Of a DNA stretch of 64,000 nt, positions 1 to 10,912 are shown piece by piece. Position numbers and translations under genes: made by a program. A model generated the notes under the pieces. The model was not told the DNA's origin. It worked only from the letters and a program-made list of their open reading frames with translations, and did no database searches. Numbering within the stretch: the stretch's first letter is position 1; every line of letters begins with the position of its first letter. Origin of the DNA: Pseudomonas helmanticensis (lineage in GTDB: Bacteria; Pseudomonadota; Gammaproteobacteria; Pseudomonadales; Pseudomonadaceae). The stretch is taken from NCBI RefSeq assembly GCF_900182985.1, contig NZ_FXUY01000001.1, positions 868,001 through 932,000 of the forward strand, in the 5' to 3' direction.

Positions 1-66
1 AATAACGTTTTTGAAATTAGCCCGGTAAGGATTTATATGTGGCCGTACTAGTTATGTTTCGGCGGG

Positions 67-1611
67 TTAGTCCACAAAGAACTCACCTGTTGATGCTTTT
101 CCCTGGATTTTTCCATCGAAATGCTCAGTCATGGTAGAAGAGAATATTTGCGCGACCGTATCAGCGTTAAATTTTTCATCGTGCTGGAATAGTACGGCGT
201 CATGCATTGGTACTTTTATTTGAATGTTGGCTTCGTTTCTGAGGTTCAAAAGTGACTTTTTAAATATGAGGGATGCGGTGCCTTGTACTATTTGGCTCAC
301 GGAAGATCTCTTCTCTTGCTCTGATAAAGGCCCGATAATTTCTCGTCTCATATGGTTTCCTAAGGAGGTTTTGACATAGCCCTGTTGTTGAAATTCTGAA
401 TGTATAGTGACTTTCCATTTTTCAAAAATGCAAAATTTGTTAAAGAAATCCTTGGCTGCTTGCCTGTTTGCACCATAGTTTGATGCTGCGTCGTAAAGGC
501 TTTGTTTTCGCATTCCATAAGCGTATGAGAGAAATAGTCTTTTTGCCTCCTTTCGATTGGCTTTGTTACCGAACAGTTCCTCTGCGACGGTTTCGTAAAG
601 ATCGCCGCTGGCATAAAGTCTCAGGATTTCGCTATCGCCGGATAGTACTCCCATTATTCCTGCCTCATATTGATCAAAGTCGACATAGGAAAATAGCTTT
701 CCTTCATCTGGTAAGAGTATGTTTCTATGTTGTTTTGCTAGATTTTGTAATGATGGGTCTTTGAAGTATATTCGAGATGTGACTGAGCCGAAAACATCTG
801 TAATCGGATAGATTCTTCTCTGGCTTAAGGGTATTAAATTGAGTACTTTTCTTGATTTTGCAATTTTCATGAGTTGTAAAAGATCTATAGCAAAATCGTC
901 CTGCATAGGTACAAATTTCAAAACGTACTCCACATTTACTCCGGAAAAATCATAACCTTTTGGTTCTAGGTAGTTGATGATTTCAGTGTCTGTGGGTGTT
1001 TCTAATGGTAGATTGTATTTTGCAGAGAAGGCTTTAAGAGCCATATAGTATTCAAATTCAATGTTTTTCTTGTGCAGGCGAAGTTTGTCTTCGTTTATTG
1101 CGATGCCTTTGGCTGCTGATTTTATTAATTGCTCTGTTATTGGTCGCTCTATCTTGATAAATCGATCCCATTCATCAAGTTGTTTTGCTGAAGTTTCTAT
1201 CTCTTCTGACAGTGTTAGCAAAGCTTGACCTACTGTAGCGAGGATACTTTCATCTATAGCGCATTTTCGGTGGAAAATGGCAAGGTACTTTTTGATTGTG
1301 TCTGCCTCAACCAGTTCTTTTAAAGACTGAGCTACGTCAATTTTTTCTTTTAGTTCTCTGTCGGTCTTTTGGCCAGATGTTGAGATTCGGAGTTCTTCGA
1401 TGTCAGTAATGATTTTTGGTAATTGCTGGGTTGCTTCATATATTGCAGGTGCTATTAGCCAATAGTCATGGCAAATGATCTCTGCACTATCCGCGACGAG
1501 TTTTTCGGCTGATACCTCTTCAATCTGGGTTGCATCCCATAGATAGAATAAATCATTGCCCTGCTCAGTGTAGTCGTGGATGAAAAGTAGTGCTTTTTTA
1601 TTGTTACTCAT
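67..1611 (-). CDS. Family A DNA polymerase-like protein, partner of the adjacent reverse transcriptase
   Basis: The C-terminal half has the three polymerase motifs of family A (Pol I/T7 type). Motif A reads VDFDQYEAG near residue 312. Motif B, around residue 355, has the R-x-x-A-K...YG pattern (RKEAKRLFLSYAYG). Motif C is PMHDAVLF near residue 468. The two metal-binding aspartates are therefore kept, but the usual HDE is HDA. A thumb-like stretch (ERPITEQLIKSAAKG) precedes the palm. At 514 aa it is far shorter than Pol I (about 930 aa); I see no 5' nuclease and no convincing 3'-5' exonuclease motifs. The start overlaps the end of the upstream reverse transcriptase gene by 8 bp (ATGAGTAA), which suggests translational coupling. 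The gene is AT-rich with codon use unlike its neighbours, pointing to transfer. Inference: it copies or completes DNA made by the reverse transcriptase. Confidence 0.85.
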   Translation of the reverse strand: MSNNKKALLFIHDYTEQGNDLFYLWDATQIEEVSAEKLVADSAEIICHDYWLIAPAIYEATQQLPKIITDIEELRISTSGQKTDRELKEKIDVAQSLKELVEADTIKKYLAIFHRKCAIDESILATVGQALLTLSEEIETSAKQLDEWDRFIKIERPITEQLIKSAAKGIAINEDKLRLHKKNIEFEYYMALKAFSAKYNLPLETPTDTEIINYLEPKGYDFSGVNVEYVLKFVPMQDDFAIDLLQLMKIAKSRKVLNLIPLSQRRIYPITDVFGSVTSRIYFKDPSLQNLAKQHRNILLPDEGKLFSYVDFDQYEAGIMGVLSGDSEILRLYASGDLYETVAEELFGNKANRKEAKRLFLSYAYGMRKQSLYDAASNYGANRQAAKDFFNKFCIFEKWKVTIHSEFQQQGYVKTSLGNHMRREIIGPLSEQEKRSSVSQIVQGTASLIFKKSLLNLRNEANIQIKVPMHDAVLFQHDEKFNADTVAQIFSSTMTEHFDGKIQGKASTGEFFVD

Positions 1612-3463
1612 AAGGACTTATTTCCTCGTAGATGCTTAGTGCACTGGCAGGTTCTCTATCAATTAACGGGATTCCGTTATCGAAGTAAGGTTTGGCGCGT
1701 AAGCCAGTCCACATAAGTTTTGTGCCGATTTTTGGTACTAATTCGGCGACATCCTCTTTGGAGAATTCACTAATGGCGAGAAGAAAGTTTCTTTGATGGT
1801 AGAAAGGCCAATCATCGCGGAACTCTTGAATAAGTGGGCGAAGATGATCAGTCTCATCGATGCAGCGTAAATAGATGAATATGGCAGAGCATTCGGAGTG
1901 AAGTACGTTTTCTGTAATTTTTCTTTTGGCAAAGTTTATGGCTTCACTGTTTTTGTATTTTGCTCTTGCGAGTAGTAGCCATAAGTGAAAATTTTGCCAG
2001 GAGTAAATAGAGCGGTCGTGATCTTGGAGGTAATTAGATATTTTTTCAAGTTCGTCTGGAGATGGTTTTAATGCCCATAATATTCGGCAGTACTGGTCTG
2101 TGGAGGCTGCATGGTCTTCTAAGGTTTCAATAAGTAAGTGCTTGAGATCTATGGCTATGTCTGTTTGTATGTCGAATAAGTTGGCTTCCGTAAGTTGGAT
2201 TAGTCGATTGATGGCGAAACGGAACTGTCGGGATTGAGATTGTTTTTCTGTAATGCATTCGCGAAGTAGTTGGTGAATATATTTCGCGGATCTAGCTATA
2301 ACTCTTCTGCTTCTAGATCGCCACATACTGTCAATTGTTTGGCTGCGGTCGTCTGTTGTTGGAAAGCTTTCGCTAATTTCTTGGGTAGGGCTATTGTTTG
2401 TCAGGATGTTGGTTTTTGCAGAGTTGATGTTCATTCCGACCTTTCGGAGCTGATTGATCAATTCAGTTAGCGCGATTTTAGCTGCTTGTGGGGAATTGCA
2501 TATGATTCTAATGTCGTCAACGTATCTGTAGTAATCGTACTTGAGAGCTACCATGGTTTGATCAACAGAGTTCAATACAACATTAGCAATAAATGACGAC
2601 GCATCTCGATTCTGTGGTAGACCATGTTTTTCATTAAACCCCCAGCGACACAAGAGTTCACAGAGTGTATTTATTGAGTTTCGTATCATTAGTTTTTTTG
2701 GTCCGCTTGCCGCTATTTTGTCTATGCTCTCCTCAAAGGCTGATCTTATTGAATCAATTGATATGTTTTCAAAGTAATTTATGAGATCTGTTACTAATAG
2801 CGCTTGGTTGTTTTGAATCGCGGTTTTGGTCACGCCTTCGAAAGTGGTCCAAAGTTCTATGCGGCTTTTGAATATGTATCGCTCAGACGTTCTGTTTTTA
2901 TTGTATCTGTGCCCAAGTACTCTGTGTGATAGCAATGGGTCGTAATATGGAATAAGAAATGAGCAGATTGCTTGGTAAATAAATCTATCATAAAAGTCTG
3001 TTTCGAGAGAGTATCTTAACCCAATGCTTTTTTTGGGGATGTCGTAGACTGTCCTCATAGCTCCTTGATATTTTCCGTTACCATCCAATATTAAGCTCTG
3101 AAGATTTTCGTGCAAATATTTTTTGTTTTCTATTAAATCTCGATGCTGGAGAACATCGAAAAACCAATCATCTCTCATGTCTTGAGTTAAATGTTGCAGT
3201 ACTGCATCTATGTCTATGTCAAATGCTAGTAGATCGATGGCCTTTTTGGGAGTGTCTTCTTTTAGAATGCCATAAGCGAGGCATGTTTCTATAAAATGGT
3301 GAAGTTTTTTTTTGACTTTTTTTGTTTTTAAGGTTGGGTCGTTATTTTTAATCAGATCTATAATTGAATTTAGGTCGTGCTTTACTTTTTCCGCTTTTGA
3401 AAGTACTTCGGGATCTAAGTGAGGTCGGATTTTTTGTGCTTCGCTTCCAAGTTCTTCCGACAT
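1604..3463 (-). CDS. Reverse transcriptase with C-terminal helical region (Abi/UG-like, putative defence RT)
   Basis: A retron/group II-type reverse transcriptase core is visible. It has a PKKSIGLRYS segment near 145, motif A LLVTDLINYFENIS near 223 (catalytic Asp), motif B GLPQNRDASSFIANVVLNS near 281, motif C YRYVDDIRIICN near 313 (YVDD), and a motif D-like region near 340. About 110 N-terminal residues and about 230 C-terminal helical residues flank the core. That is the architecture of abortive-infection/'unknown group' RTs rather than group II intron proteins: there is no maturase or HNH domain, and no msr-msd layout was recognised. An AAAGGA ribosome site lies 8 bp before the ATG. It is the first gene of an operon with the polymerase-like gene, and both are AT-rich. 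A role in phage defence is inferred from family and island context. The RT call is firm; the subgroup is not assignable by eye. Confidence 0.9.
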   Translation of the reverse strand: MSEELGSEAQKIRPHLDPEVLSKAEKVKHDLNSIIDLIKNNDPTLKTKKVKKKLHHFIETCLAYGILKEDTPKKAIDLLAFDIDIDAVLQHLTQDMRDDWFFDVLQHRDLIENKKYLHENLQSLILDGNGKYQGAMRTVYDIPKKSIGLRYSLETDFYDRFIYQAICSFLIPYYDPLLSHRVLGHRYNKNRTSERYIFKSRIELWTTFEGVTKTAIQNNQALLVTDLINYFENISIDSIRSAFEESIDKIAASGPKKLMIRNSINTLCELLCRWGFNEKHGLPQNRDASSFIANVVLNSVDQTMVALKYDYYRYVDDIRIICNSPQAAKIALTELINQLRKVGMNINSAKTNILTNNSPTQEISESFPTTDDRSQTIDSMWRSRSRRVIARSAKYIHQLLRECITEKQSQSRQFRFAINRLIQLTEANLFDIQTDIAIDLKHLLIETLEDHAASTDQYCRILWALKPSPDELEKISNYLQDHDRSIYSWQNFHLWLLLARAKYKNSEAINFAKRKITENVLHSECSAIFIYLRCIDETDHLRPLIQEFRDDWPFYHQRNFLLAISEFSKEDVAELVPKIGTKLMWTGLRAKPYFDNGIPLIDREPASALSIYEEISPYE

Positions 3464-3820
3464 ATCTAAAATCCTTTAGCGGTTATCTGGGTTGTTTTTT
3501 AGATAAATAACACTGATATTGATTTTGGGGTTGAATTACAAAGAGCGCGCAGCGTCAAAAATCCCCTTAAGACTCTAGCACTTCTTTCAATGTGTGCCAT
3601 GTTGGGGGCGTGTGGCGCATGGTGGTGCGCTGATGAGACGGGCCATACTATTTTGCAGGAAAGCGCCGTAATCGCCATGGTGTTTCCATCGCTTAAACGT
3701 AACCCCGCATAGACGTTTAAATTACACAAATCGTTACGCCACAAAGGCTACAACGCCTTGCGCCGTTGCCTACGCCTACTACAGAATCCCCCGGCATACG
3801 CGCTATAGGGGCGGGCTATA
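3464..3820. other. Intergenic region: RT promoter zone and edge of low-GC island
   Basis: The first 75 bases are AT-rich and must carry the minus-strand promoter and leader of the RT operon; no clear -35/-10 pair can be fixed. From about 3541 composition becomes GC-rich, so the right edge of the imported segment probably lies near 3540. The rest holds only a low-quality minus-strand open frame (3499-3744), which I do not accept as a gene. An unannotated non-coding RNA for the RT could be here, but no strong fold was seen. Confidence 0.4.
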
Positions 3821-4048
3821 TCGTTGCCCGGTCACTGCAAAACAGTGATCGGGTTTGGTAGCCCGCTTCTTGATAGCCGTATGACGACACCTTATGCAGT
3901 CTCGATTTTGAGGCTCAGCTTTTATGGTGGCCATGCGTGGGGCTCATTCGTGAGCGCCGGGGTTTGCTATCTTGACCGGTCTACCAACCCACGCATGGCC
4001 GCCACCCATCGTTTGGTAGCGAGAGTGACGGCTCTTTATTTCTTATAA
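3821..4048 (+). repeat. Nested inverted-repeat element upstream of DUF6124-type gene
   Basis: Several pairings are visible. CCCGGTCACTG (3827-3837) pairs with CAGTGATCGGG (3843-3853). GGTGGCCATGCGTGGG (3926-3941) pairs with the segment 3988-4006 containing CCCACGCATGGCC. GGTTTGGTAGCCC (about 3852-3864) pairs imperfectly with GGTCTACCAACCC (about 3978-3990). A second TTTGGTAGC copy sits at about 4011. The pattern looks like a structured leader or transcribed repeat rather than a coding region. It ends 15 bp before the downstream start codon, so it may be its 5' untranslated region. From memory, similar leaders precede this gene family in other fluorescent pseudomonads; this is not verified here. 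Confidence 0.5.
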
Positions 4049-4063
4049 GGTAGCGAGTCCTCT

Positions 4064-4429
4064 ATGTTCAAACCAACGCCAAACCCACCGGACACCGATC
4101 CGATCCCGTACGACCCAACCCTCGAACCTCAAAAGATAAAAGAGGCGACCGACCGCGCCATCAACTTCTATCTCAACCCCGGCTCACTGAAACTCTCAAT
4201 CCCTTCCCGCAAAACCAGCAAGATCTTCCTCATCGATCCCGCCGTGGACGAAGAAACTCTACTCCTCGAAGCCTGCGAGTCGTTGGCCGCCGCCAGTGAC
4301 ATGGCACGTGACATGAGCGATGTCGTCGACAACTCACAACGACGAACCCTGCTGATGCTGCATCAGGTGATCATGCTGAGTGAGCTGATGGTGAATCGAG
4401 TCCTGGATGGACGCCGCTTGCCGCACTAG
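4064..4429 (+). CDS. DUF6124-type protein of unknown function, copy 1
   Basis: This is a 121-residue soluble acidic protein starting MFKPTPNPPDTDP. It is clearly paralogous to the next gene: both are 121 aa and share a proline-rich N-terminus, an ETLL...ACESLA.A block, and a C-terminal R.TLL...QV.ML.EL.VN..LD block. It has no signal peptide, transmembrane segment or catalytic motif. I recognise the family as the Pseudomonas-enriched DUF6124, with no known function. The start is the first ATG after the structured repeat. Tandem copies suggest local duplication followed by divergence; the REP between them was acquired after or during that event. Confidence 0.75.
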   Translation: MFKPTPNPPDTDPIPYDPTLEPQKIKEATDRAINFYLNPGSLKLSIPSRKTSKIFLIDPAVDEETLLLEACESLAAASDMARDMSDVVDNSQRRTLLMLHQVIMLSELMVNRVLDGRRLPH

Positions 4430-4464
4430 TTGCGGCTTGATGCACGGTTGCACCGCGAACGCCG

Positions 4465-4549
4465 TGTAGGAGCTGCCGTAGGCTGCGATCTTTTGATTTT
4501 GATTGTTGAAGAGCAGATCAAAAGATCGCAGCCTGCGGCAGCTCCTACA
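4465..4549. repeat. REP pair (GCGATCTTTTGAT type) between the DUF6124 paralogues
   Basis: Two inverted REP arms of the form TGTAGGAGCTGC...GCGATC face each other around a short AT-rich loop. The left arm has a T where the right arm predicts C, tolerated as G:U in RNA. It may act as a transcription or mRNA-stability barrier between the two paralogues. Confidence 0.9.
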
Positions 4550-4615
4550 GGGGGCATTTTGCGGTGGTTATTTCTTTTAAAGTGCCTTGATGGGTGCTTG
4601 CTGGAGTTTCAGTTG

Positions 4616-4981
4616 ATGTTTGAAACCACTAATAGTCCGCCGGGGACAGATCCGGCGTCGCCGTATGAATCATTCGATTCGAAGAAGCTTCACGCGGCGG
4701 CAGAGCGGGCGCTCGATCATTATCTTGCGCCTGAGAAGATCATGGCGACGCCGTATAGCCCCAGCACTTTGTTCATGGTCAATCCGCAATCCGACACTGA
4801 AACCTTGCTGGTCAATGCCTGTGAGTCGTTGGCCTCGGCGACGGTGATGCTCGGTGATTTTGCCGGGATGCTGGAAGGGCCGAATCGCAATACGCTGTTG
4901 GGGATTGCGCAGGTGGTGATGTTGGGGGAGTTGGCGGTGAACAAGGCGTTGGATAACGTCGAGTTGAAGGCGCCGGTCTAG
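4616..4981 (+). CDS. DUF6124-type protein of unknown function, copy 2
   Basis: The open frame extends upstream to 4430, but that part is read through the REP and is not coding. The ATG at 4616 follows a CTGGAG ribosome site and gives MFETTNSPPGTDP, aligning with copy 1 and giving the same length (121 aa). Conserved blocks are ETLLVNACESLASA and the C-terminal QVVMLGELAVNKALD. There is no membrane or secretion signal. Function is unknown. Confidence 0.75.
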   Translation: MFETTNSPPGTDPASPYESFDSKKLHAAAERALDHYLAPEKIMATPYSPSTLFMVNPQSDTETLLVNACESLASATVMLGDFAGMLEGPNRNTLLGIAQVVMLGELAVNKALDNVELKAPV

Positions 4982-5211: not shown

Positions 5212-7749
5212 TTACTGACACACCGCATCCGCCACCCGATAACCATCGACCATCGGTGCTTTGCTCACGTCCAGTTCGATGCGGCAGCTCTGTTCGGCTT
5301 TTTCGCCCCATTTCATTTGGTAGACCTTGCCTTCACCCACGGACAGCAACACTTGACCGGCCTGGCCGACGACGCCGGCGCTGGCGCCTTTTTCGTTGGT
5401 GATGGGGGTGCCGAACGGCGGTTGTTTGCCGTCCTTGAGGCGCACGTTGAGCAGGGCTTTTTCCGAGCGGCTGGCGGCGAAGCTCGCTTTGACCACGGCG
5501 CCGCGACGGGGCACGACGTTGGTCACGCCTTCTTCGATGTCGATGTTGTTGTCCAGTTCGCCAGTGTCGAGGGCCACGCGGTTTTTGCGGTACGGCGTGA
5601 CGTACGGCACGAGGGCGTAGCCCTTGGCGTTGGTCAGGGTGCCGGGGGCGTTGAGGACGCCGACGTCCGGGGTGTCTTTGACTTCGACCAGGGCCACGGT
5701 TTCGCCGAGGGTCTGGCCGAATTCGAGGCCATCGCTGTGGCCGAGCACGGAGCCTGCGGCGCTTACCGAGGTCTGGCGGTAGCCGCTGCCGACGCTGACG
5801 CCCGCGCCGAGTTGGGCGAACGGTGCGCGGTAGCCGATCAGGGCCGAGCCGTTGTTGCCGCCGTTGTCGGAGCGGTTGGCGTTGACGTTGTAGTTGAGGT
5901 TGCCGTCGCGCCCGCTCAGGCCGGCGCGCTGGTCGAGGCTGCCGTCGTTGTTGCGGGTGACGGTGTAGGTCCCGGTGCTGCGCGTCTGGCCGATGGGCAT
6001 CGACACGGTGAACACCACTTGGTTGTTCTGGCCGAAGTTGTCGGTCAGGGTTTTGCTCGCGTAGATGCCGTAGGTCACGCCCTTGTGTTGGGTGTTGAAG
6101 CCCAATTGCATCTGTTTGTCTTCGCGCGAGCTGCCCCAGTAGTTCTGTTTGCTCATGTTCAGGTAGAACGAGCCGTAGCTGTCGAGCGCCTGGTTGATGC
6201 TGGCTTCGACTTTGCTGCGCTTGGAGAACGTGTTGAATTCGTTCGGTTCCTGCAGGCTCACCGCTTCATCAAAGTCGCGATAGCCTTCGGTGGAATAGCG
6301 ATAGCCGGCGAAGCGGACCGAGGTGCCGGTCTCGAAAGCCTTGCCGTAACGCGCGCCAAAACTCTGGCCTTTTTCTTTGCCAGCCGCGACCCCGGAGCCA
6401 CTCGGCACGTCGGTTTGCGCTTGGGTCACGTCCAGCGACACGGCGCCGAGACTGCCGAGGCTTTTGCCCACGCCGACGACGCCGGCGCGATAGAAGTCGG
6501 CGCCCAACAGGCCGCCATACAACGTCAGGTCGAACGGCAAACCGTACGCCAGTGACGCCTGGGCGAAGAGCGGACGCTGGCCGCCGTCGACGGCGTTGTA
6601 CTCACCGGCGGTGGCGCTGTAACGCCAGGTTTTTTCCCGCAGCATGTTGGCCAGCGTGGCGTACGGCTGGGTGAAACGCCGTTCGCGGCCGTCGGCTTCG
6701 GTGATGATCACTTCGAGGTCGCCACTGCCCGACGCCGCGTTGAGGTCGTCGATTTCGAACGCACCGGGCGCCACGTACGTGGTGTACAGCGAGTAGCCGT
6801 TCTGGCGCACTTCGACCTTGGCCTGGGTTTCGGCGATGCCGCGAATGATCGGCGCATAACCCTGCATCGAGTCCGGCAGCATGCCCATGTCCGACGCCAC
6901 TTGGGCGCCGCGAAACGGAATGCTGTCGAACACGTCGCCGGGGGTGAAGCTTTCGCCGAGGGTCAGGGTGCCCTTGATCGCGGTCAGGTCGCGCTGCGCG
7001 TAGGTGTTGCTGCGCTGCCAGTCCTGCTGGCCGTCTTCGTCCTGACGGAACGAGGAGCTGGAGCGAAAACGCCAGTCGCCGAGGTTGAATCCGCCGTTGG
7101 CGTAGAGGTTGTATTGCGTGCCGCTGCCCCGCGCATCGGACTGCGTATTGGCCGCCGAAAACTGATAGTTGAGCATCGCCGCGTTGATCCCGCGATCCCA
7201 TTCTTCGGGGGCGACATAACCGGCGGCGTCGCGGCGCAGGGCGATCTGCGGCACGCTGATGTCGAGGGCCAGACGCCCGGCGTCGAAGCTCACCGAGGCG
7301 CCTTCGATCAGTTCGGCAAGGTCGATGCACGCGGGGAATGTTTCGCCCGGGGTCAGGAACGCCTCGACCTTGACCCCCAGTTCCTTGAGAAACGCTTCGG
7401 ACAGACAGGCGCGCACTTCAGCGCTTTTGGCGTCCTTGGCGAAGGTCATGTCGCGGCGGTCGAAAAAGCTCTGGTTCAGGCGGATTACCACCGGATAGGT
7501 GCCAGGGCCGATGCTGCCGCTGTTGGCGATGGCGTCCAGATCGAGGTTGGGCCCGGCGCTGGCGCCGCCGAAGGGCTGCATGAAGCTGGCATCAAACTTC
7601 GCCGGTTCGTCCGCGCTTGCCGAACTGCCCATCAGCGCCGCGAGAATGGCGACCGACAGATGCAATGGAACAAAAGGCGCGGACTGACGATGACGGTTCA
7701 GGGCTTCGATTCGCATGACAATACTCAACACTCGGCCGTCACGCGGCAT
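5212..7749 (-). CDS. Outer-membrane fimbrial usher (FimD/PapC family)
   Basis: The usher is an outer-membrane beta-barrel that receives chaperone-subunit complexes and threads the growing pilus. A signal peptide ends near SSASA. The PapC_N domain follows (FDASFMQPFG...LDLDAIANSGSIGPGTYPVVIRLN), then the barrel and plug with the conserved DVFDSIPFRGAQVASDMGMLP-type region and APGAFEIDDLN. C-terminal domains end in SKAPMVDGYRVADAVCQ with a usual late Cys pair. Length (845 aa) is normal. The start is uncertain: 7749 lacks a ribosome site, and ATG 7716 (MRIEALNRHR) also leaves a full signal peptide. It is the last intact gene of the operon, 42 bp after the chaperone. Confidence 0.93.
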   Translation of the reverse strand: MPRDGRVLSIVMRIEALNRHRQSAPFVPLHLSVAILAALMGSSASADEPAKFDASFMQPFGGASAGPNLDLDAIANSGSIGPGTYPVVIRLNQSFFDRRDMTFAKDAKSAEVRACLSEAFLKELGVKVEAFLTPGETFPACIDLAELIEGASVSFDAGRLALDISVPQIALRRDAAGYVAPEEWDRGINAAMLNYQFSAANTQSDARGSGTQYNLYANGGFNLGDWRFRSSSSFRQDEDGQQDWQRSNTYAQRDLTAIKGTLTLGESFTPGDVFDSIPFRGAQVASDMGMLPDSMQGYAPIIRGIAETQAKVEVRQNGYSLYTTYVAPGAFEIDDLNAASGSGDLEVIITEADGRERRFTQPYATLANMLREKTWRYSATAGEYNAVDGGQRPLFAQASLAYGLPFDLTLYGGLLGADFYRAGVVGVGKSLGSLGAVSLDVTQAQTDVPSGSGVAAGKEKGQSFGARYGKAFETGTSVRFAGYRYSTEGYRDFDEAVSLQEPNEFNTFSKRSKVEASINQALDSYGSFYLNMSKQNYWGSSREDKQMQLGFNTQHKGVTYGIYASKTLTDNFGQNNQVVFTVSMPIGQTRSTGTYTVTRNNDGSLDQRAGLSGRDGNLNYNVNANRSDNGGNNGSALIGYRAPFAQLGAGVSVGSGYRQTSVSAAGSVLGHSDGLEFGQTLGETVALVEVKDTPDVGVLNAPGTLTNAKGYALVPYVTPYRKNRVALDTGELDNNIDIEEGVTNVVPRRGAVVKASFAASRSEKALLNVRLKDGKQPPFGTPITNEKGASAGVVGQAGQVLLSVGEGKVYQMKWGEKAEQSCRIELDVSKAPMVDGYRVADAVCQ

Positions 7750-7791
7750 CGGCAGCGTGCAGGCAGGTTCGCAAGGAAAGGGGTGGCGGTG

Positions 7792-8532
7792 TTACGGGGC
7801 GCTGCTCAGCTCGACTTTTTTCGGCTCGCTGTAACCGCCGTAGTCGTTGATCGCGGAGAACACCACCGCGCCGCTGCGGCCGCTGAAACCCGGCAGCGCA
7901 TAACGCTGGCTGCTCATTGGCGCGACCATTTTCGGTTCATTGACTTCAACCACTTGCTCACCGGCCTCGACTTTCACGCCGATAAAGGACACGTGAAACG
8001 CTGTCGGGTTGTTGACCACCAGCACCGGTTTGCCTTGTTCCTGTTGCAGGCTCCAGCGCAGTTGCGGCGGTGCCTCCATCGCGTTGCCCTTGAGGGTGGG
8101 CGGGCGATAGAAGACTTTGATCCGCGTGCGCATGGCGATTTTCAGGGTGTTGGCGTCGGCCTTGCCGGCCAGCGGAATTTCCTGGGCGTTGAAATAGAAA
8201 ACCGATTCGCGGTCTTGCGGCAGATCGCCGGGGACTTTCTGAATACGCACCATTTGCTCTTTGCGCGGATCGAGGCGAAACAGCGGTGGGGTGGCCACGA
8301 ACGGCGTGGCAGTGGTGTTGTCGTCGGCCTCGGTGTTGATCCAGGCTTGCACCGCGTAAGGCTCGGGCGTGGTGTTGCTGACCGTGATCGAGGCATCGCG
8401 TTTGTTGCCGTCGTACACGATGCGCGTGCCGCCGAGCATCACACCGGCCTGGCTGAAACTGCTGAGCAATGTTGCGCTCAGCAATACGGCCAATACCGAT
8501 GCGGTTTTGAAGGGGGAAATTGCTGGGTTCAT
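7792..8532 (-). CDS. Periplasmic fimbrial chaperone (FimC/PapD family)
   Basis: It binds pilin subunits in the periplasm by donor-strand complementation and delivers them to the usher. A signal peptide (MNPAISPFKTASVLAVLLS...SQA) precedes an N-terminal immunoglobulin-like domain. The family segment RIVYDGNKRDASITVSN is present, and RLDPRKEQMVRI and the basic MRTRIKVFYRP motif mark the subunit-binding cleft. The open frame runs to 8601, but the ATG at 8532 has AAGAGG at 9 bp and fits the signal peptide; the ATG at 8541 touches that ribosome site. The mature protein is about 220 residues, as usual. It is co-transcribed with the usher. Confidence 0.93.
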   Translation of the reverse strand: MNPAISPFKTASVLAVLLSATLLSSFSQAGVMLGGTRIVYDGNKRDASITVSNTTPEPYAVQAWINTEADDNTTATPFVATPPLFRLDPRKEQMVRIQKVPGDLPQDRESVFYFNAQEIPLAGKADANTLKIAMRTRIKVFYRPPTLKGNAMEAPPQLRWSLQQEQGKPVLVVNNPTAFHVSFIGVKVEAGEQVVEVNEPKMVAPMSSQRYALPGFSGRSGAVVFSAINDYGGYSEPKKVELSSAP

Positions 8533-8584
8533 TGCGTTCATCCTCTTGTCGGCACGGCCACAAAAAACCGTGGCAAAGGGAAGG

Positions 8585-8615
8585 GCCTCCGGCGGCGCCA
8601 ATCGCCGCCGGAGGC
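8585..8615 (-). promoter_or_regulatory. Strong GC hairpin between pilin and chaperone genes
   Basis: Thirteen paired bases (GCCTCCGGCGGCG with CGCCGCCGGAGGC) surround a 5-nt loop, 10 bp after the pilin stop. No immediate U-tract follows on the minus strand. In chaperone-usher operons such a hairpin commonly stabilises the abundant pilin message and partly blocks read-through. That role is inferred here from position. Confidence 0.6.
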
Positions 8616-8624
8616 TGACCGGAC

Positions 8625-9173
8625 TTATTGGTAGTCGACGGTAAACGCGGCTTTGGCGTTGGCCGGACCGGAAGTGGCGGCGCCGGTGGCGACGTAGTTG
8701 GCGGTGAAGCGCAGCGGCTGGGTCAGGTCCAGATAAGGCGAGGATTCCAGGCCCAGTTGCACGTCTTTACCGGACGCATCCTTGATCTGCACGGCGACGT
8801 TGGTGGCCACGCCGGCTTCCGGCAGCAGGCCGATCCACTGGCCGCTGGAACCGGCGTTGCCGCTCAGCGAAAGGAACTTGACCACGGCTTTCTTGCCGGT
8901 GACGTTGCAGCCCGGTGCGGTGGTGTCGATGGTCAGGGTGAACGCGCCGCCACCCGCCACTGCGCCGGCCGTGGCGAGGGAGGTGGCCGGCACACTGCCG
9001 AGGCCGACGTCGCCGGCACCGGCCGAACCGTTGAGGTCGGACACCACGACCGGGCAGGTGTTGTCGGTCACGCTGCCGACAAAGTTGATTTCACCGTCGG
9101 CGGCCATTGCGGCTTGCGAAGCAGCTGCCAGAACCAGGGCCAGGGACAAACCTTTGAGCGCAAAATTTTTCAT
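8625..9173 (-). CDS. Major fimbrial subunit (type 1 pilin-like)
   Basis: This is a 182-residue secreted pilin. The signal peptide MKNFALKGLSLALVLAAASQ ends at AMA-ADGEINF. The mature part starts with the FVGSVTDNTCPV pattern of the donor strand and first Cys; the second Cys is in APGCNVTGKKAVVKF. The C-terminus FTVDYQ has the penultimate aromatic typical of chaperone recognition. The longer frame to 9275 is upstream leader; ATG 9173 has TGGAAG at 6 bp. The gene has its own promoter/operator (9274-9337) and is followed by the 8585-8615 hairpin, so it is probably expressed above the assembly genes. Confidence 0.92.
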   Translation of the reverse strand: MKNFALKGLSLALVLAAASQAAMAADGEINFVGSVTDNTCPVVVSDLNGSAGAGDVGLGSVPATSLATAGAVAGGGAFTLTIDTTAPGCNVTGKKAVVKFLSLSGNAGSSGQWIGLLPEAGVATNVAVQIKDASGKDVQLGLESSPYLDLTQPLRFTANYVATGAATSGPANAKAAFTVDYQ

Positions 9174-9273
9174 GATCACTTCCAGATATTGAGTAAATGT
9201 CCTTGAGCCCGAAGGCCCTGAGACGGATCGACGTCGCCATCCCGTCTGGGGCAGAGCGTGGCGTCTGAGGCTC

Positions 9274-9337
9274 ATTATCGGGATGCCGATCAGGGCGCTA
9301 TGTAGGGAAAATCCCTTTGCTTGTAGGAAAATTCCCA
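9274..9337 (-). promoter_or_regulatory. Pilin promoter with two palindromic operator sites
   Basis: On the minus strand ATCCCGATAAT supplies a -10 (GATAAT at 9279-9274), about 100 bp before the pilin ATG, with no good -35. Just upstream lie TAGGGAAAATCCCT (9303-9316) and TAGGAAAATTCCCA (9324-9337), whose centres are exactly 21 bp apart (two helical turns). This is the arrangement of an activator-dependent promoter. The TAGGAAnnTTCC palindrome resembles RcsB/LuxR-type response regulator boxes. The same module precedes the adhesin gene. Confidence 0.6.
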
Positions 9338-9365
9338 GCGCTTGCTTCCGCTAAATCAGCACCGC

Positions 9366-9420
9366 CATAAAAAACGCTCCCCTTTGGCACCGCGCGGAAT
9401 CGGCGATGGCAAAGGGGAGC
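9366..9420 (-). terminator. Intrinsic terminator of the adhesin gene
   Basis: Read on the minus strand, GCTCCCCTTTG and CAAAGGGGAGC form an 11-bp stem around a 23-nt loop, followed by GTTTTTTATG. It lies 36 bp after the adhesin stop, separating the adhesin transcript from the pilin-chaperone-usher unit. Confidence 0.8.
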
Positions 9421-9455
9421 GTGGGAAACTGAAACGGTTTTTTTGGCAGCGGGGC

Positions 9456-10517
9456 TCAGCGATAAGTCACGGTGAAACTCGCGTGGCCATTGGCGGTGCC
9501 GGGTTGCGGCGTCTGGCCATCGCCGGTCTGGATATAACGGGCCTTTAGCGGCACTGAAGTCACGCCGTTGACGATGCGATTCAGGCGCACGGGCTGACCC
9601 AGATTCATCGGCGTGCCGTTGTCCTGCAACACCTGGATCGCCACGCCTTGAGCGGTCGAATCGCTCGACAGGCTCAAGACACCGTTGGCCGCGTCGAGGA
9701 TGGTCGACGTCTTGTCGGCATCGATCTGAATATTGGCGAAGTTGCCGTTGAAGTAGCCGTTGGTGTTCGACGGGTAGTTGTTGCCGGCGATGCACGCGTT
9801 GAGGGTAATGGCGAACGGCTGGGCCTGCGTGGTGGAGTTTTTGCCGTTGAATACGCGTTTTTCCCAGGTGCCCATCGGCACGTTGATTTGATTGCCCGGT
9901 GCGGCCGGCAAAGAGCAACCGGCCAGGGTTACGGTCGCGGTGAAGGTCAGGTCGAACATTGGACCCATGTCCGAAGTGCCAGTGGCGACCAGTTGATTGA
10001 TGGTATGGGTGCCGGGCGCGATTTCACCGGTCTTGATTAGCGCGTAACGCATCATCGCCTGGTTCATGTTCGCCTGGCTGGCGGCGGTGCGATTCATGTT
10101 GAAGGGAATGAAGCGGTTGGGATTACCCGGCGGCGGAATCCATGCGGCAGCAAAACCAGTCATATAGATGGCCAGGCCGATGCCGGGCACATTGGTCTGC
10201 AGCAAGGCATTGGCCGGCACATCCAGCACGTCCACCGGAATGTTTACCGCCACTGGACCGATCAGTGTCGTGTTGTAGGTGGCCGTGCCATAACAAAGCA
10301 AGGTGTCACCGAAATTCAGCTGTCGCATGGTGCCGTTGGCGTTCAACGTGGTGCCGATCGGTACGTCTCTCGGTGCGAACACCGCACCACCGGTGAGCGT
10401 CAACTGCTTGACCGTATTGTTGCCCGTCGCCCAGGTGCAAGCCGCCATCGCCGGCGCCGCCATCAGCATCAACGCCGACGCGCCAAGCCCGCCCAGCATC
10501 CGTGATCCGATCTTCAT
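9456..10517 (-). CDS. Two-domain fimbrial adhesin/tip protein
   Basis: This is a 353-residue secreted protein. The signal peptide MKIGSRMLGGLGASALMLMA is cleaved after AMA, leaving ACTWATGNN. The N-terminal about 180 residues would be the receptor-binding domain. The C-terminal part, from about TFTATVTLAGCSLPAAPGNQ, is a pilin domain with two Cys and ends HASFTVTYR, the donor-strand/chaperone signature. This is the FimH-like layout. ATG 10517 has GGGAGGG at 9 bp; the frame beyond it is not coding. It is unusual in being the first gene of the locus with its own terminator and promoter rather than the last gene of the operon. The ligand is unknown. Confidence 0.85.
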   Translation of the reverse strand: MKIGSRMLGGLGASALMLMAAPAMAACTWATGNNTVKQLTLTGGAVFAPRDVPIGTTLNANGTMRQLNFGDTLLCYGTATYNTTLIGPVAVNIPVDVLDVPANALLQTNVPGIGLAIYMTGFAAAWIPPPGNPNRFIPFNMNRTAASQANMNQAMMRYALIKTGEIAPGTHTINQLVATGTSDMGPMFDLTFTATVTLAGCSLPAAPGNQINVPMGTWEKRVFNGKNSTTQAQPFAITLNACIAGNNYPSNTNGYFNGNFANIQIDADKTSTILDAANGVLSLSSDSTAQGVAIQVLQDNGTPMNLGQPVRLNRIVNGVTSVPLKARYIQTGDGQTPQPGTANGHASFTVTYR

Positions 10518-10549
10518 TGCATGTGCCCTCCCGAAAAGAAAACGGCCAT

Positions 10550-10912
10550 TCAATGCAGGCTGACTGCATCTGGACGTTGTTGGCGTCGGCCAACGAAGGG
10601 CTGAATTATCAGGATCACAAGGGTCGCATCGAATAGCCGGCTTCCCGCTGGCTTGTAGGAAATTTCCCAGAGGTTTCGGCAGCAGCGAGATTCAAGGCCA
10701 ATCCGAGTCGTGATACCCGGAAGCAGGCTGCGATCCTTGATACCCATCATTCGCGGCCAAGGCCGGAACAGCGGTTGCCATGCATGAGCGGACAGCTCAC
10801 AGTTCTGAATGACAAAGCGCTCGGGTTTGCCGTCTCTCATGACACCGTCAAACAGCGCGAGCACGATGGCGCACGCCTGATCTGCGGTCAGTTTGGCGTT
10901 GCGCTCACTCAT
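10550..10912 (-). CDS. Hypothetical protein after SseB, possibly 3'-truncated
   Basis: It begins MSERNAKLTADQACAIVLAL two bases after the sseB stop codon, which suggests co-translation. Codon use is Pseudomonas-like for roughly the first 80 codons. The last third overlaps the adhesin operator and -10 region and encodes a non-descript C-terminus, so the real gene may have lost its 3' end. No family is recognised. It could also be a chance extension of a short decayed gene. Confidence 0.4.
   Translation of the reverse strand: MSERNAKLTADQACAIVLALFDGVMRDGKPERFVIQNCELSAHAWQPLFRPWPRMMGIKDRSLLPGITTRIGLESRCCRNLWEISYKPAGSRLFDATLVILIIQPFVGRRQQRPDAVSLH
10605..10669 (-). promoter_or_regulatory. Adhesin promoter, twin of the pilin promoter
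   Basis: ATCCTGATAAT on the minus strand gives the -10 (10610-10605). TAGGAAATTTCCCA lies at 10656-10669 and is nearly identical, with flanks GCTTG and AG, to the distal pilin operator. A degenerate site beginning TAG and containing TTCCC sits at 10634-10647, where the proximal site is expected. Distance to the start codon matches the pilin promoter within 10 bp. Confidence 0.55.

Follow-up and report, generated by a model that had tools for sequence, protein, structure and literature searches.

We describe here a coupled pair of DNA-synthesising enzymes encoded in a 64,000-nucleotide stretch of the genome of Pseudomonas helmanticensis (contig NZ_FXUY01000001.1, positions 868,001 to 932,000; the window). 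A reverse transcriptase (RT) gene is followed directly by the gene of a family-A DNA polymerase (PolA), and by its profile matches the pair is a member of a catalogued, apparently uncharacterised type of defence-associated reverse transcriptase (DRT), UG9-PolA. The UG9-type RT and its family-specific PolA are one coupled, co-inherited unit, found together in distantly related genomes. From the anatomy of the two proteins we tentatively propose a two-gene DRT in which the RT would make protein-primed single-stranded DNA, PolA would make the second strand, and the duplex would be held on the RT. The kind already appears in catalogues of candidate phage-defence systems, to which this locus adds a new member.

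Identity of the pair

Profile searches place both proteins. With the PADLOC models, the RT scores 823 bits for RT_UG9_small, 294 for UG9_large and 179 for UG21, and the polymerase scores 612.6 bits for RTasPolA; the known kind is represented there by PDLC03786 and PDLC03816. In Pfam, RVT_1 (53.6 bits) is the one match of the RT, and the polymerase matches DNA_pol_A (94.6 bits). Table 4 of the 2021 myRT paper gives a co-occurrence of 94% in complete genomes for 'UG9 - PRK14975', a PolA-type domain (PMC8934634). Because both proteins match in PADLOC, and because the association of UG9 with PolA has been published, the pair, which has the same arrangement here, belongs to a catalogued kind; an earlier note made from the sequence, which could not place it in a named type, is superseded on this point. 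The one distinction found from the PADLOC UG9 family is a longer N-terminus of the RT, with about 75 residues ahead of the model match. Nor does the RT fall in a well-studied group with a different partner, a result that the earlier note had named as contrary to its reading.

Two trivial explanations were rejected. Chance or artefact does not fit the profile scores and the conserved coupling, and RTasPolA is not a copy of the host Pol I, a separate gene at C1:4281852-4284641 that scores 1189 bits where RTasPolA reaches 66.6 bits against a cut-off of 720.

That pairs of an RT with a dedicated DNA polymerase are little studied, as the earlier note held, agrees with the literature that we searched, which contained no experimental study of the UG9-PolA pair and did not extend to the main UG/Abi survey (Mestre et al. 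2022), reportedly a treatment of UG9 and PolA. A 2014 survey, in the part available, records UG9 from Proteobacteria only and could not settle how it relates to the Abi lineage (PMC4244168). DRT1 to DRT10 are named in passages of the DRT literature that do not include UG9, and the term is likewise absent from the available portions of two DRT reviews and from those of PMC12926913.

The coordinates of the pair are collected in Table 1; residue counts, there and below, rest on 120 listed homologues of 745 matched.

Table 1. Features of the UG9-PolA pair and its flank, in window coordinates
Feature	Position	Strand	Evidence
UG9-type reverse transcriptase, C-terminal helical-repeat tail, 619 aa	1604..3463	-	Window open reading frame; PADLOC RT_UG9_small 823 bits, RVT_1, predicted model
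RT catalytic motif YVDD, residues 314-317	2513..2524	-	Y314-D317 invariant in alignment
Shine-Dalgarno-like GAGGAAA within the RT gene, ahead of the PolA start (putative)	1621..1627	-	Sequence reading
Codon of penultimate RT residue Tyr618, proposed priming residue (putative)	1610..1612	-	Tyr in 120/120 listed homologues
8-bp overlap: RT end including stop, and PolA start codon	1604..1611	-	Same overlap in 13/14 loci
RTasPolA (RT-associated family-A DNA polymerase), 514 aa	67..1611	-	Window open reading frame; PADLOC 612.6 bits, DNA_pol_A, Klenow-type model
PolA motif A Asp311	679..681	-	Alignments
PolA motif C Asp471	199..201	-	Alignments
RT leader within the island, no RNA family match, folding not unusual	3464..3678	-	Rfam scan, folding
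Right flank, outside the pair: C4 antisense RNA (3920-4009), a1b1 target element (3818-3869), DUF6124 gene (4064-4429)	3679..4429	+	Rfam, flank comparison

Coupling and co-inheritance

Fourteen loci were compared: the window, five others in Pseudomonas, one each in Hylemonella, Photorhabdus, Duganella, Thalassospira and an Eisenbacteria bin, and plasmids of Paraburkholderia, Dinoroseobacter and Falsirhodobacter. PolA lies directly after the RT in all fourteen, although RT identity to the window protein ranges from 75% down to 29%, and thirteen share the same 8-bp overlap, that of the Eisenbacteria locus being 1 bp. The overlap and gene positions first read from the window stand, and in this survey of neighbourhoods no homologous locus lacked the polymerase, the other outcome that the earlier note had set against its own reading. 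The identity matrices of RT and PolA agree closely (Spearman rho 0.92, p 0.0001; 13 loci, Eisenbacteria left out). Trees of 13 loci, from which a broken RT of P. cerasi was omitted, have 6 of 10 splits in common; the four discordant PolA splits have support of at most 62, and every PolA split with support of at least 80 is found again in the RT tree. Within Pseudomonas, a search of 298 genomes detected the RT in four and a search of 398 detected the PolA profile in four, and these are the identical four genomes. Each of five matched plasmid records annotates the features under the match as RNA-directed DNA polymerase and DNA polymerase. Strict coupling and co-inheritance suggest that PolA acts on the product of the RT or within one complex with it.

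Searches for further carriers yielded little: there was no match in 50,697 phage records, none in viral contigs screened with two peptide patterns, and no DNA match to the Photorhabdus pair in E. coli genomes. A single genome matched among 369 of the class, and a single one among 349 around Hylemonella, each being the query genome or the centre itself; 243 relatives gave three matches, all already known.

Two loci are unusual in themselves. At the P. cerasi locus the UG9 RT frame is broken near the tail, leaving 489 and 140 aa in two frames, and PolA is open. The Eisenbacteria bin (L017 5932-9152), which lies outside Proteobacteria, holds a divergent UG9-like RT (29% identity, 402 bits) and, coupled to it, a PolA whose start lies 1 bp into the RT stop; its assignment to Eisenbacteria may be a binning error.

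Anatomy of the two enzymes

The RT was correctly described at the outset as an Abi/UG-like enzyme with a YVDD motif and a long helical tail: YVDD is kept in 119 of the listed homologues, and the predicted model (mean predicted local distance difference test score, pLDDT, 74) has 13 helices from residue 387 onward. In the model, an RT domain is fused to a helical-repeat alpha-Rep domain, the arrangement of class 1 UG/Abi enzymes. Its fold matches DRT6, DRT4, AbiK, AbiA and Abi-P2 over the full length, through residue 590-603, with DRT6 the best match, whereas the alignment with DRT9 is confined to the RT domain. AbiK, AbiA and DRT4 are described, in the passages available, as template-free and protein-primed, and the modelled fold of the UG9 RT leans to template-free synthesis. 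The earlier idea that the pair makes and completes cDNA is plausible, although, given this leaning, cDNA is possibly the wrong word.

In the polymerase, alignments show that D311, E316, R353, K357, Y365, H470 and D471 are kept, and we take Asp311 and Asp471 to correspond to Asp705 and Asp882 of Pol I in E. coli numbering. Motif A and motif B are each conserved in 119 of the listed homologues and MHDA in 117. By sequence, the catalytic motifs of both enzymes are intact. The exonuclease DxE is not kept, and PolA is probably unable to proofread. The earlier reading of a palm without nuclease domains holds for family matches, whereas the model, by aligning with Klenow-type enzymes from residue 1, points to a probable shortened, vestigial exonuclease domain.

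A candidate priming residue and a proposed mechanism

The RT ends in Y-E-E-I-S-P-Y-E, and its tail (residues 612-619) has pLDDT below 50. All 120 listed homologues have the penultimate Tyr; 118 have a Tyr at -8, and 117 have a Pro at -3. According to the passages available, the priming residues of DRT9 are Y496 and Y498, which lie in a peptide with YDYE at its end (PMC12483538), and DRT10 uses a Ser or Tyr at its C-terminus (PMC12632851). Tyr618 is accordingly our leading candidate for a priming residue of the UG9 RT.

The proposed sequence of events is as follows. When a phage infects the cell, the RT, whose architecture resembles that of the template-free enzymes AbiK and DRT4, would make single-stranded DNA, starting the strand from its own residue, most likely Tyr618 in the flexible C-terminal tail. 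The coupled PolA, probably without proofreading, would copy this strand, and the product would be duplex DNA held on the RT; either the duplex or its synthesis would stop phage growth or halt the cell. The further proposition, that a template-free, self-priming RT with its own Pol I-type polymerase yields an RT-tethered duplex whose sequence is encoded by no nucleic acid, and that this duplex is the antiviral agent or signal, strikes us as somewhat unlikely.

Several observations weigh against the proposed mechanism. Sequence scores of the RT are near-equal for UG15 (35.6 bits), DRT9 (35.1) and AbiK (32.2), and the PADLOC models give 59 bits for Drt4, 59 for UG17 (DRT10) and 49 for Drt9; because these scores do not decide the class, its assignment depends on the modelled fold (mean pLDDT 74). 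In the sources as available, the priming residues of AbiK and AbiA sit elsewhere in the chain, and DRT6 has no resolved product. Two bases of the Tyr codon also belong to the PolA ATG, and in the window the Glu codons ahead of it resemble a Shine-Dalgarno sequence, so the overlap with the PolA start could partly explain the conservation of Tyr618; the first base of the codon, which lies outside the ATG, is nevertheless T in 13 of 13 loci and the base before it varies, which favours selection for Tyr. The divergent Eisenbacteria RT has no Tyr at this place, and L016 and L022-L024 have lost the one at -8. A second candidate for priming is the conserved linker at 370-384, with the invariant residues S383 and S385. 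Finally, activity and defence are here predicted from sequence and model, and the mechanism is inferred from anatomy.

Alternative readings

In the best-placed alternative, which we nonetheless consider unlikely, the RT copies a linked, unrecognised non-coding RNA (ncRNA) from its C-terminal Tyr, as in DRT2, DRT9 and DRT10, and PolA makes the second strand. The known C-terminal primer residues, those of DRT9 and DRT10, do belong to ncRNA systems. An Rfam scan of the locus (L003) at E up to 1 found nothing in the pair or the 215-nt leader, and blastn of 500-nt flanks from 13 loci (E up to 0.1) found shared sequence confined to two locus pairs. The flanks of L023 and L024 are similar on both sides, and their leaders are 79.8% identical over 223 nt, although this is no better than fourfold sites of the genes (203/245 and 189/241). 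In L016 and L023, whose RTs are only 46% identical, a run of 15 nt is the same in both leaders, some 90 nt ahead of the RT (E 0.009 for this comparison). Folding, which also speaks for an RNA, gave z of at most -2 in 4 of 39 flank pieces (those upstream in L012, L015 and L016, and the one downstream in L016). Against an RNA, the upstream open reading frame listed at L025 ends 51 bp before the RT. The modelled tail, furthermore, has the fold of AbiK and DRT4, not that of DRT9. With few loci, and no DRT of known ncRNA run as a positive control, the failure to detect an ncRNA is weak evidence.

A little less probable still is a different task for PolA, which might extend or repair ends on phage or host DNA, or process the RT product, instead of making a second strand. 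In favour of this, PolA keeps its catalytic residues, and its template is not indicated by these data; the strict coupling and co-inheritance with the RT speak against it.

We regard it as improbable that the pair has no part in defence and is a mobile or domesticated RT-polymerase pair engaged in DNA repair. G2L4 RTs, which are said to act in DNA repair, and group II RTs do match the RT domain of the model, and PolA is Pol I-like; against this stand the Abi-type tail fold, the patchy presence of the pair in Pseudomonas, and its surroundings. In relatives, its neighbours include integrase-domain genes (L009, L014), DUF6538 proteins (L013, L015), which are presumably recombinase-type, type I restriction genes (L013) and an MmeI-type enzyme (L024), and it is also carried by conjugative or mobilizable plasmids. 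Together with a genomic slot in which three of six relatives read carry other genes of defence type, these mobile contexts are circumstantial pointers to defence.

That PolA serves the RT only as a scaffold or regulator, and could do so without polymerase activity, is very improbable given the near-universal retention of motifs A, B and MHDA in the listed homologues, even though coupling would fit a protein complex, Leu361 stands at the position that we take to be Phe762 of E. coli Pol I, and Ala472 replaces the second acid of motif C.

Genomic surroundings

The pair occupies a low-GC island (about 40% GC), as the earlier note had seen against the GC-rich genome: GC is 0.39-0.44 over positions 1-4000 and 0.495-0.664 in later 1-kb windows. 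The island extends about 117 bp beyond the left window edge (L028:5884) and ends on the right near window 3679; no integrase was seen beside the window pair, again in line with that note. To its left, outside the window, lies a gene ending at L028:5882, read by eye, which we take to encode a 2OG-Fe oxygenase.

These flanks recur in relatives, and the stretch between them differs. Six relatives were read at this slot, some shorter open reading frames in G199, G230 and G097 lying outside the scan, and three hold clear PADLOC matches of other families: a UG5-nitrilase RT of about 1000 aa (1017 bits) in G207 (L066); a PDC-S02/NucS-like protein, a UvrD-type helicase and a GmrSD-type enzyme (up to 315 bits) in G230 (L067); and a PDC-S06 AAA_13 pair (377 and 532 bits) in G680 (L069). 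G199 (L065) carries a protein of 720 aa that matches NERD weakly (27 bits) and has no Pfam match, and G097 (L070) two open reading frames without Pfam or PADLOC match; these are possible new defence genes. G011 has a spacer of about 1 kb, outside the scan.

A C4 antisense RNA (79.3 bits), an a1b1 target element and DUF6124-type genes flank the slot (window 3818-4978). The C4 RNA is taken as part of the flank because it occurs in all six hotspot loci scanned (L065-L070), two of them without an RT among the open reading frames read. The DUF6124/C4 block is inverted in G680 and G097, and many Pseudomonas genomes have similar DNA at two or more sites. Farther right, window 5212-10553 encodes fimbrial usher-, chaperone- and pilin-like proteins, as read by eye from translations.

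Comparison with known systems

For retrons, the best RT model gives 39.8 bits against a cut-off of 235, and no retron RNA was among the Rfam matches at E up to 1 (L003). DRT7 (UG10) resembles the UG9 pair in joining an RT to a second DNA-synthesising activity; its primase-polymerase, however, is in the same chain as the RT, whereas here UG10 models score about 52 bits, the 619-aa RT chain carries RVT_1 alone, and the second enzyme is a separate, Pol I-type protein. In DRT3, too, two proteins synthesise DNA, and together they yield a duplex, a product that is proposed here; unlike the single RT with a family-A partner described here, it consists of two RTs and an ncRNA.

DRT9, for which UG28 is the underlying name, and DRT10 (UG17) have their primer residue at or near the C-terminus, comparable to the conserved penultimate Tyr of UG9. 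Both use an ncRNA, whereas none was detected here, in few loci and without a positive control. In the modelled succession of RT domain and helical tail, the closest systems are DRT4 (UG15), DRT6, AbiK, AbiA and Abi-P2. DRT4 consists of one gene, and DRT6 is related to it, while UG9 has a PolA partner; and the penultimate Tyr proposed for UG9 differs in place from the priming residues of AbiK and AbiA.

The DNA products of known DRTs include toxic genes, homopolymers, random strands and alternating repeats; in the texts consulted, the second strand is ascribed tentatively to a cellular polymerase for DRT9, and DRT3 makes it with its second RT. UG9 would join an RT of predicted AbiK/DRT4-like fold to a dedicated DNA-copying enzyme, and its conserved coupling, two active sites and proposed priming residue make template-free duplex synthesis and phage arrest addressable by single substitutions.

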